From: Tardiphaga sp. P9-11
GTDB lineage: Bacteria > Pseudomonadota > Alphaproteobacteria > Rhizobiales > Xanthobacteraceae
Assembly (NCBI RefSeq): GCF_008329525.1
Contig: NZ_NPKQ01000007.1
Location: forward strand, 62,001-126,000
Direction: 5' to 3'
DNA length: 64,000 bases
The stretch's first letter is position 1; each line of letters opens with the position of its first letter. Shown piece by piece: positions 56,373 through 59,185 of this stretch. Made by a program: the position numbers and the translations under genes. The notes beneath the pieces were generated by a model. The model saw only the letters and a list, made by a program, of their open reading frames with translations, did not search any database and had not been told where the DNA came from.

Positions 56373-57407
56373 TTACGCGGCGGCCGACTTGGCGGTCGCG
56401 ACTTCCGAAATGGTCTTCAGGATCTGCGAAGCGATGGCGTAGGGGTCGCCCTGCGAATTCGGACGACGGTCTTCCAGATAGCCCTTGTAGTCGTTCTTGA
56501 CGAAGGAGTGCGGGACGCGGATCGATGCGCCGCGGTCCGCGATGCCGTAGCTGAACTTGTTCCACGGAGCCGTTTCGTGCTTGCCGGTCAGACGCTTGTC
56601 GTTGTCCGGGCCGTAAACAGCGATGTGATCCATCAGGTTCTTGTCGAACTGGGCCATCAGGGCTTCGAAGTAGTCCTTGCCGCCGACCGTACGCATATAT
56701 TCGGTCGAGAAGTTGGCGTGCATGCCCGAGCCGTTCCAGTCGGTATCGCCGAGCGGCTTGCAGTGGAATTCGATGTCGATGCCGTACTTCTCCGTCAAAC
56801 GGAGCAGCAGGTAACGCGCGATCCACATTTCGTCAGCGGCCTTCTTGGAGCCCTTGCCGAAGATCTGGAATTCCCACTGGCCCTTCGCCACTTCGGCGTT
56901 GATGCCTTCGTGGTTGATGCCAGCTTCGAGGCAGAGGTCGAGATGTTCTTCGACGATCTCGCGGGCGATCGAGCCGACGTTCTTGAAACCGACGCCGGTG
57001 TAATATGGACCCTGCGGAGCCGGGTAACCGGCTTCGGGGAAGCCGAGCGGACGGCCGTTCTCGTAGAAGAAGTATTCCTGCTCGAAACCGAACCAGGCGC
57101 CGGCATCGTCGAGGACGGTCGCGCGCCGGTTGGTCGCGTGCGGGGTGACGCCATCGGGCATCATGACTTCGCACATCACCAGGGCGCCGTTCTCACGGGC
57201 CGCATCGGGATAGATCGCAACCGGCTTCAGCACGCAATCGGAGCTGTGGCCTTCAGCCTGCATGGTCGACGAACCGTCGAAGCCCCACAGCGGGAGCTGT
57301 TCGAGGGTCGGGAAATCTTCGAATTCCTTGATCTGCGTCTTGCCACGCAGGTTCGGAACCGGCGTGTAACCGTCGAGCCAAATGTACTCGAGCTTATACT
57401 TTGTCAT
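56373..57407 (-). CDS. glnII: Glutamine synthetase type II (eukaryotic-type)
   Basis: A 344-residue cytosolic enzyme that joins ammonia and glutamate to form glutamine. It is the short eukaryotic-like GSII form, recognised by YIWLDGYTPVPNLRGKT at the start, WGFDGSSTMQAEGHSSDCVLKPVA, EQEYFFYENGRPLGFPEAGYPAPQGPYY and the late GIADRGASIRVPHSFVKNDYKGYLEDRRPNS block. It lacks the GSI adenylylation loop, so control must be transcriptional or translational. A sigma54-type promoter lies at 57502-57517, and a divergent GstI-like gene is upstream. GSII beside a GSI elsewhere is usual in rhizobia. Confidence 0.97.
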   Translation of the reverse strand: MTKYKLEYIWLDGYTPVPNLRGKTQIKEFEDFPTLEQLPLWGFDGSSTMQAEGHSSDCVLKPVAIYPDAARENGALVMCEVMMPDGVTPHATNRRATVLDDAGAWFGFEQEYFFYENGRPLGFPEAGYPAPQGPYYTGVGFKNVGSIAREIVEEHLDLCLEAGINHEGINAEVAKGQWEFQIFGKGSKKAADEMWIARYLLLRLTEKYGIDIEFHCKPLGDTDWNGSGMHANFSTEYMRTVGGKDYFEALMAQFDKNLMDHIAVYGPDNDKRLTGKHETAPWNKFSYGIADRGASIRVPHSFVKNDYKGYLEDRRPNSQGDPYAIASQILKTISEVATAKSAAA

Positions 57408-57432
57408 GCGGGTCTCTCATAAGTTGGCGATG

Positions 57433-57451
57433 CGTAGGGCGTGAGCCCTGA
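57433..57451 (-). other. Stem-loop in the glnII mRNA leader
   Basis: In the predicted leader of about 84 bases the mRNA can form AGGGC-TCAC-GCCCT, with weaker extension. It is a possible contact site for translational control by the GstI-like protein, by analogy only. Confidence 0.3.
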
Positions 57452-57501
57452 GCTTGCCGGTGGGCGGATGCAGGATCCACCCCCAGCGGCACAGCTTGTA
57501 A

Positions 57502-57517
57502 AGCACGTAATATGCCA
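57502..57517 (-). promoter_or_regulatory. Sigma54 (-24/-12) promoter of glnII
   Basis: On the minus strand TGGCATATTACGTGCT has GG and GC exactly 10 bases apart, as sigma54-RNA polymerase needs, with TGGCA and TGCT matching consensus. Transcription would start near 57491, giving a leader of about 84 bases. glnII of rhizobia is known to be NtrC/sigma54-controlled. Confidence 0.75.
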
Positions 57518-57764
57518 ATTTGCCGCGGCGCAACCGTCTGCGTCGTAAAAAGGTCATCGGGCGGGGGATACCGACCTGGCATCGCGTAAATCGGGACCGT
57601 CGCCATCTCGAATCGGCGGTATTTTCGCGATTTTCAGCAGCAGAGCGAACGGCGGCTTTGAACGCTCATGCTCAATTCCGATGCACGAGATATTTTCGAG
57701 GAACTTTTCTGCCCTTCAAGCGCTCATTTGACGGTTGAGCCGCCAACCTGTCGCGGCCAAAGCA

Positions 57765-57781
57765 TGCGCGCCAAAGGCGCA
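57765..57781. promoter_or_regulatory. Candidate NtrC-like dyad
   Basis: The 17-base dyad TGCGC-N7-GCGCA has the length and outer bases of an NtrC site (TGCACC-N5-GGTGCA), with two mismatches per arm. It lies between the two sigma54 promoters but only just upstream of the gstI-side one, so the assignment is weak. Another candidate is GCAC-N7-GTGC at 57836-57850. Confidence 0.3.
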
Positions 57782-57782
57782 T

Positions 57783-57798
57783 TGGCACGTCGTGCGCA
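57783..57798 (+). promoter_or_regulatory. Sigma54 (-24/-12) promoter of the gstI-like gene
   Basis: TGGCACGTCGTGCGCA matches the -24 element TGGCACG perfectly and has GC at the right distance (GG-N10-GC). Transcription would start near 57809, giving a leader of about 115 bases to the ATG at 57924. Confidence 0.75.
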
Positions 57799-57923
57799 TA
57801 ATGTCGGCATTCGCCTGCTTTTTAAGGAGCAATCGGCACAAAAGAAGTGCGCCGATGTTACAATCTAGACCTGACGTGAAAAACGCAGAGCGAGAAGCTG
57901 ATCAGGAAGGAAAAGTGAGCGTT

Positions 57924-58121
57924 ATGACGACGAATATCTCACATCAACACACTGCCAAGATCTACCGGTTTCCGGTGGGCGGACGTGCATCGGTCGGCCC
58001 GCGCCGGCTGGACATACGGCCGAGCCAGTTCCGCGTGCAACAGACCGCTCCGGCCGTTGCCGTCGACGGCTGGTATCACGAGGCCGCCATCCAGGACGCC
58101 AAGCGGACCACAGAACACTGA
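57924..58121 (+). CDS. gstI: GstI-like / DUF2735 small protein, putative translational inhibitor of GlnII
   Basis: A 65-residue protein with the DUF2735 pattern: TAKIYRFPVGGR (residues 10-21) and the C-terminal WYHEAAIQDAK (50-60). In Rhizobium leguminosarum the protein GstI of similar size, divergent from glnII, lowers glnII translation. Here the gene is also divergent from glnII and has its own sigma54 promoter, so a brake on GlnII is a strong inference. The start is ATG 57924 or GTG 57915; GGAAGG lies upstream and favours GTG slightly. An intrinsic terminator follows. Confidence 0.82.
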   Translation: MTTNISHQHTAKIYRFPVGGRASVGPRRLDIRPSQFRVQQTAPAVAVDGWYHEAAIQDAKRTTEH

Positions 58122-58174: not shown

Positions 58175-58204
58175 GAGGGTCGAAACAATGATGTTTCGGC
58201 CCTC
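58175..58204 (+). terminator. Terminator of the gstI-like gene
   Basis: A 12-bp stem with one G-T pair (58175-58186 with 58193-58204) and a 6-base loop, followed by TTGTTAT. It lies 53 bases after the stop and before the convergent glutaminase gene end. Confidence 0.75.
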
Positions 58205-58243: not shown

Positions 58244-59185
58244 TCAGACGCCGAAGATCGACCAGCCCAGTCGTTTCGTGAGTGCTTCGAGGGCGATGCG
58301 GCCGAGATGCGAATTCCCGTGCTGGTCAAGACCCGGCGCCCAGACCGCGATCGACGCTTTGCCGGGCGCCACTGCAATAATGCCGCCGCCGACGCCGCTT
58401 TTGCCGGGCAGGCCGACGCGATAGGCGAATTCGCCGGAACCGTCATAGTGGCCGCACATGAGCATCAGCGCATTGATACGGCGCGCGCGCTCTGAGGACA
58501 CCACCGAGAGGCCGGTCGAGGGATTGCGGCCGGAATAAGCAAGATAGCGCGTCGCCATCGCGAGCTGTCGGCACGACATCGCGATCGCGCAGTGGTGGAA
58601 ATAGACGCCGAGCGTGAAGTCGACGGGGTTTTCGACCACGCCAAACGACTTCATGTAATTGGCCAGCGCGGTGTTGCGAAAGCCGGTGCGTTTCTCGGAC
58701 GCGGCAACCGTCTCATCGATCACGATGGAGCTGTCGCCAGACAGAAACTGCATGAAACGCAGGATTTCGCCGATGGCCTCGCGGGGCTGATGGCCGGACA
58801 GGATGACATCGGTGACGGCGATGGCGCCGGCATTGATGAAGGGGTTGCGCGGCACGCCGCGCTCCCGTTCGAGCTGGACGATGGAGTTGAATGGGTTACC
58901 CGACGGCTCCCGGCCGACATGTTTCCACAGCCGGTCGCCGACCATTCCGAGCGCCAGCGTCAGTGTGAACACTTTCGAGATGCTCTGGATCGAGAACGGC
59001 ACATCGGCATCGCCGCCGGCCGCCACCTGACCATCGGCATCGATCACCACAAGACCGAACTGGTTGGGATCGATGCCGGCCAGTTCAGGAATATAGCTCG
59101 CGACCTCGCCGCGGTCGGTGCGCTGCGCCATCTCGTCAGCAATTTCCTTGACGACGAGATCGAGACTCGGGGCAGCGTGGTTCAT
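58244..59185 (-). CDS. glsA: Glutaminase A
   Basis: A 313-residue serine-dependent glutaminase with a beta-lactamase-like fold, hydrolysing glutamine to glutamate and ammonia. The catalytic Ser-x-x-Lys is Ser68-Ile-Ser-Lys71 in [13 protein letters not shown]. Further family marks are [26 protein letters not shown] and [12 protein letters not shown], which together cover the active site. Length is normal. It is next to the glnII-gstI pair; together they could set the balance between glutamine and glutamate, though no shared promoter is seen. Confidence 0.95.

Follow-up and report, generated by a model that had tools for sequence, protein, structure and literature searches.

The glnII–gstI locus of a Tardiphaga-like bacterium: a conserved sigma54-type element upstream of glnII and probable opposite switching of the two genes

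The locus and its distribution

The window, which is the whole 64 000-nucleotide stretch of DNA that was analysed, comes from a Tardiphaga-like bacterium. Its nearest named relative was Tardiphaga robiniae Vaf-07, with a gstI that was 92 % identical, in a search from which the window's own record may have been absent. At the locus, glnII (56373–57407, minus strand) encodes a glutamine synthetase II of 344 aa, with matches to Pfam Gln-synt_N and Gln-synt_C above cutoff and a score of 388 bits against the NCBIfam GlnII model, which is under that model's cutoff of 500. Divergent to it lies a small gene, gstI (57924–58121, plus strand), for a protein of 65 aa. The 65 codons given in the preliminary description were confirmed, from the ATG at 57924 to the stop at 58121, and an in-frame GTG at 57915 is a possible alternative start. 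On the 3′ side of gstI, a stem-loop resembling an intrinsic terminator (58175–58204, plus strand) has 13 pairs followed by a T-containing tail, TTGTTATGGG; a scan of the kilobase on both strands gave 2 terminator-type sites, compared with 0.9 expected. A glutaminase-like ORF, named from its translation, occupies 58244–59185 on the minus strand, convergent to gstI and separated from it by the terminator-like stem-loop, so that genes for making glutamine, for braking its synthesis and perhaps for breaking it down are neighbours. No Rfam family matched the window at gathering scores.

The product of the small gene, examined by Pfam as a longer 128-aa ORF, matched DUF2735 (PF10931) at 58.8 bits against a cutoff of 25, and a search of its own genome returned a single match at 59.8 bits, bearing out the domain assignment made earlier. 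The neighbour of glnII in Rhizobium leguminosarum bv. viciae BIHB 1148 is annotated as glutamine synthetase translation inhibitor GstI (WP_017961548.1). The window protein aligned to this sequence with 32 % identity over 59 residues (BLASTP, E 4e-8), and a 21-sequence profile matched it with an E value of 2.9e-17; residues A11, I13, F16, P17, W50, Y51, H52 and A55 were invariant across the 21 sequences. Based upon the profile match, the alignment to annotated R. leguminosarum GstI and the divergent position beside glnII, the gene at 57924–58121 is identified as a DUF2735/GstI orthologue. The two systems share a divergent small gene beside glnII, of 63 residues in R. leguminosarum and 65 in the window, and the A.IY.FP and WYH..A motifs of the protein. 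They differ in sequence, at the level of identity given above, and in that the function in Tardiphaga is predicted from sequence. R. leguminosarum GstI is reportedly an inhibitor of glnII translation, a result that citing papers ascribe to Spinosa et al. 2000 and Napolitani et al. 2004, and by orthology GstI probably inhibits glnII translation in Tardiphaga as well. An AlphaFold model of GstI had a mean pLDDT of 60.8 and a pTM of 0.17, with a sole, C-terminal helix at residues 52–64. No paper on DUF2735 was found in the literature searched, and the available parts of PMC4842269 and PMC5082802 name glnII solely in their reference lists.

The GstI/glnII pair is ordinary and well preserved, and is present in several families of the order. 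glnII adjoins the small gene in all 51 loci first collected, the window's own among them, and in all 82 further loci, which repeat some genomes of the first 51. Within the family, DUF2735 and glnII were each found in 196/291 genomes and both in 195, from lists compared by eye; the exceptions were G258 (DUF2735 without glnII) and G293 (glnII without DUF2735). Across the order, DUF2735 was found in 64/297 genomes, all of which also have glnII, and glnII in 66, with G401 and G511 carrying it without DUF2735. The pair was adjacent and divergent in 61 of these 64 genomes, which upholds the earlier description of a gstI-like gene divergent to glnII, and was split over different contigs in G451, G535 and G571, the last with a DUF2735 match under the family cutoff. 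These counts, like those below, ignore kinship among genomes. A pattern search found no gstI upstream of two plasmid-borne glnII copies, in R. johnstonii TP25 (L186) and R. leguminosarum ATCC 14479 (L187), and it is possible that these are natural glnII copies without the brake.

Promoter elements of glnII and gstI

Elements of the −24/−12 type and dyads were scored using weights set by hand, with a maximum −24/−12 score of 14.4. In each locus, gstI was taken to begin at whichever start codon brings its product closest to 65 residues. L017, in which no gstI was parsed, and L020, which is truncated, were left out before regions were scored, and removal of 7 identical regions reduced 131 to 124. 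L188 (wrong ORF picked) and L186, L187 and L177 (no gstI parsed) were also left out, and six loci were left out of the glnII leader list. A panel of 32 lineage representatives was chosen by hand; some share a genus (two Sinorhizobium, two named Rhizobium; Hansschlegelia, f34 and f34b are all g75), and L105 and L175 are one genome. Shuffles preserved base composition only in the scoring tests of the 124 regions, the Bradyrhizobium dyads, the 82 Bradyrhizobium-like loci, and the 32 representatives and 24 further loci. Identities within the genus were taken from a 13-locus alignment, against 11 relatives with the sister, T. robiniae, excluded.

The −24/−12 element of glnII is situated at 57502–57518 on the minus strand, reading TTGGCATATTACGTGCT from 57518 to 57502, with GG-N10-GC present as previously described. 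The best match on the glnII strand scored at least 12.6 in 122/124 non-identical intergenic regions, the window's own counted and L083 and L148 being the exceptions, at a median distance to the start codon of 107.5 nt across all 124. Scores of at least 12.5 were also found in 21/24 further loci from other families. The element shows 91 % identity among the 11 genus relatives, and the GG-N10-GC with TGGCAY and TGC is conserved in relatives. Because of this conservation, the sigma54-type element of glnII is considered real as judged by comparison of sequences, and the earlier proposal of a sigma54 promoter for glnII is well founded. A plain sigma54 consensus with up to 2 mismatches showed no enrichment over the whole window (79 matches compared with 75 expected). 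In Bradyrhizobium sp. DOA9, the portion of PMC13207237 available lists TGGCACGCGAAATGC in a table as an element of glnII, at −93, and reports that glnII is lowered without RpoN.

The predicted glnII mRNA leader (57408–57492, minus strand), with a start placed from the −12 element, holds a GAGAG Shine–Dalgarno-like stretch. A 5′ stem-loop (57456–57487, minus strand) was seen in a single-sequence fold, and its stem was kept in the consensus fold of 12 genus leaders; over the whole consensus fold, double changes occurred in 3/12 pairs and the covariation term was weak (−0.61). A conserved leader element near 57433–57451 had been anticipated. The alignment of leaders did not bear this out, as the hairpin there (57436–57449) was absent from the consensus fold and its sequence was common to just 4/12 genus leaders. 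Within the glnII leader, no RNA target for GstI was identified.

The preliminary description placed a second sigma54 promoter in front of gstI. Its letters, TTGGCACGTCGTGCGCA at 57782–57798 on the plus strand, are present with the GG-N10-GC spacing as stated, while their role as a sigma54 promoter for gstI is unsupported, as the element is unconserved. The site spans the linker between two inverted repeats, D1 and D2 (57782–57792), and the first bases of D2, and its −12 part falls on TGCGCA, a conserved stretch belonging to D2. It scores 12.8, a value reached in 0.9 % of base-composition shuffles per region, and the sister has TTGGCTCTTCGTGCGCA in this place, with a score of 11.6. The TGGCACG at the site has 29 % identity to the 11 genus relatives, and the 11-bp linker 31 %, compared with an intergenic mean of 52 % and 79–84 % for the flanking repeats. 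None of the other genus loci had a best match on the gstI strand of that score or at that distance. Across the 124 regions, 12.8 was reached on the gstI strand in four, the window among them, at 108–225 nt from gstI (shuffles approximately 1.1), and 12.5 was reached in 4/32 lineage representatives at differing places (108–329 nt) and in 0/24 further loci. These scattered matches are a small excess over shuffles, with none at a shared position in the relatives compared. The sigma54 promoter of gstI was rejected on the linker identity; the earlier call probably rested on a chance match in the linker of a conserved operator. The sequence TGGCATTTGCCTGC, lying further downstream, was likewise rejected as a sigma54 element, as relatives, judged by eye, have a GG-to-GC spacing of 8 or 9 there.

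A sigma70-type promoter of gstI, with a predicted start near 57871, is a plausible but weak proposal. It would use a putative extended −10, TG-T-TACAAT (57856–57864, plus strand; 76 % identity across TACAAT), with a poor −35. A plain sigma70 consensus scan upstream of gstI called no promoter. In the corresponding place, Bradyrhizobium has a sequence that by eye resembles TTGCAT-N17-GATATC.

Candidate NtrC sites between the genes

The intergenic region holds several inverted repeats of the form TGC-N11-GCA, described in the available excerpt of PMC10746234 as a putative NtrC motif present in activated as well as repressed promoters. That excerpt also reports that mobility shift, mutation and footprinting support NtrC binding at this motif upstream of Sinorhizobium meliloti nfeR1. 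For Salmonella, the enhancer sequence is TGCACC(A/T)4TGGTGCA (PMC4987338, in part). Three repeats in the window are exact. D0 (57669–57685), approximately 160 bp upstream of the glnII −24, is kept in 10/13 aligned genus loci. D1 (TGCGCGCCAAAGGCGCA, 57765–57781; 79 % identity) retains the form in 13/13 although its inner bases vary, and D2 (TGCGCATAATGTCGGCA, 57793–57809; 84 % identity), 28 bp from D1, retains it in 9/13. Two further repeats lie nearer to gstI. D2b (TGCTTTTTAAGGAGCA, 57816–57831; 77 % identity) is TGC-N10-GCA here and N11 in some other families, and the dyad-like D3 (GGCACAAAAGAAGTGCG, 57835–57851; 79 % identity) has similar stretches in other families and the strict form in 0/13 genus loci. 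D3 overlaps the place expected for the −35 and spacer of gstI, given a −10 at 57856–57864.

Among the 32 lineage representatives, 33 exact dyads were found 40–170 nt upstream of gstI, compared with 2.7 expected from dinucleotide shuffles. This is the more independent test, as the motif was a published one, although the loci were the same and the 40–170 nt range was picked post hoc. The intergenic regions of these representatives hold 46 exact dyads altogether (9.5 expected), and at least one at 40–170 nt was present in 22/32; the remaining 10/32 had none at that distance, and 6/32 had none anywhere. Dyad pairs were spaced 27–28 bp apart in seven representatives (Tardiphaga, Afipia, Rhodoplanes, Pseudolabrys, Hyphomicrobium, f48 and f2g109), 41–42 bp apart in three (f48, f24g101 and f11) and 20–22 bp apart in three (R. 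leguminosarum, g17 and f44). By the hand-weighted score, which was chosen after viewing the genus alignment, a dyad of at least 12 was found at 45–125 nt from gstI in 16/32 representatives (0.69 expected). The figure was 16 % in 82 Bradyrhizobium-like loci (a set including L031, of another genus, and three MAGs), compared with 3.5 % in shuffles, and in Bradyrhizobium the best dyad was mostly approximately 70–105 bp upstream of the glnII −24. L173 and L174, from one genus of another family, have an identical dyad of the exact form, TGCTTTTTTACTAGGCA, at 77 and 92 nt upstream of gstI, and T-rich stretches resembling it recur in other loci.

R. leguminosarum likewise has a sigma54-type element upstream of glnII and, as in the window, three exact dyads in the intergenic region, with centres 67, 87 and 409 nt upstream of gstI compared with 123, 151 and 247 nt in the window. 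NtrC sites at this R. leguminosarum locus may already be in print, since Spinosa 2000 is among the sources for NtrC-family binding sequences in the part of PMC7240162 available. In the window's own genome, a TGCRC-N7-GYGCA pattern matched 82 sites, compared with 31 for a backward control, and is too degenerate for interpretation. In the upstream regions of glnB and glnK, taken as NtrC controls, the sigma54 match of glnB scored 13.6, the sigma54 and dyad matches of glnK were weak, and the dyads of these controls were unconvincing. A tandem pair of P-II genes (L210, contig C12, 470770–471894) has imperfect best upstream sigma54-type matches, scoring 12.1 and 12.4. Taken together, the dyads are more frequent than chance and are candidate NtrC sites.

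Nitrogen control of the two genes

Expression of this pair has been published for S. meliloti 1021, which has the same arrangement, on pSymB, and the same type of glnII element, and differs in a 61-residue protein and in having one exact dyad and one D3-like stretch. In the available part of PMC8829014, low nitrogen lowers gstI mRNA four-fold, but only where phosphate is sufficient, and raises glnII 28-fold at high phosphate. The part of PMC3596328 available also reports gstI as repressed by low nitrogen and in a glnB glnK mutant. Repression in low nitrogen and in the glnB glnK mutant fits an active NtrC that represses gstI. Low nitrogen still reduced gstI in a glnD mutant, which does not fit this simply, and the nitrogen response of gstI may therefore be independent of the usual PII/NtrC route.

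Based upon these S. meliloti data and the dyads, we favour a reciprocal switch in which NtrC activates glnII and represses gstI, a coherent feed-forward loop to which we assign a probability of roughly 60 %. glnII and gstI probably respond to nitrogen in opposite ways and not jointly. Under nitrogen limitation, phosphorylated NtrC would bind the array between the genes, activate the sigma54 promoter of glnII and block a putative sigma70-type promoter in front of gstI; when nitrogen is plentiful, gstI would be transcribed and its small protein would lower translation of leaky glnII mRNA. A precedent is S. meliloti nfeR1, where a TGC-N11-GCA site lies upstream of an NtrC-repressed sigma70-type promoter (PMC10746234, excerpt). 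However, nfeR1 is an sRNA rather than a protein brake beside its target, and there NtrC represses whatever its phosphorylation, mainly under nitrogen surplus. As this condition is the opposite one, nfeR1 shows that NtrC can repress via such a site and not that starvation triggers repression. Other points against the reciprocal switch are the glnD result, the phosphate dependence, the weak glnK control, the lack of a sigma70 call, the departure of D3 from the strict motif, the dyad-less representatives and the position of the Bradyrhizobium dyads near glnII.

A second possibility is that the array is an enhancer of glnII only, or that some other regulator, for instance NtrX, binds it, with gstI constitutive or otherwise responsive to nitrogen. 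Enhancers are able to act over the distance from the array to glnII, and the glnD and glnK observations fit this explanation, as does the proposal that NtrC-family regulators share similar dyads (PMC7240162, in part). It is, however, at odds with the clustering of exact dyads on the gstI side (33/46 within 40–170 nt of gstI) and with the repression of S. meliloti gstI by low nitrogen and in the glnB glnK mutant, and we regard it as a tentative alternative with perhaps a one-in-four claim. Somewhat less probable is that the DUF2735 protein acts otherwise than on glnII translation, for example on GlnII protein. Low identity to R. leguminosarum GstI over so short an alignment, an uninformative structure prediction and the lack of an identified RNA target in the glnII leader are compatible with this, whereas the profile match, the conserved FP and WYH motifs and the near-strict pairing with glnII make it unlikely.

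The co-induction of enzyme and brake from two NtrC-activated sigma54 promoters, an incoherent feed-forward loop as put forward in the preliminary description, has the high-scoring GG-N10-GC at 57782–57798 in its favour, but this site is unconserved in the genus or elsewhere and shares its −12 part with D2, and low nitrogen represses gstI in S. meliloti (PMC8829014 and PMC3596328, in part), making it very improbable. An incoherent loop requires that the activator induces both the target and its inhibitor. Promoter evidence stands against this, as does expression evidence, from S. meliloti only; with no supported sigma54 promoter for gstI, co-induction is therefore unsupported. There is a slim chance that a new sigma54 promoter arose in the D1–D2 linker of this one Tardiphaga lineage, and that gstI is activated here by the NtrC that would repress the gstI of its relatives. 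If true, a coherent loop would have been rewired in evolution into an incoherent one, a change for which the close sister T. robiniae, with its degraded element, would be a natural control.

In summary, our analysis corrects a promoter call at this locus and favours reciprocal NtrC control of glnII and gstI. The pair extends beyond Rhizobium and Sinorhizobium, as 64/66 sampled genomes of the order with this glnII have the small gene, and the recurrent array of candidate operators between the two genes is directly testable as a two-way NtrC switch.
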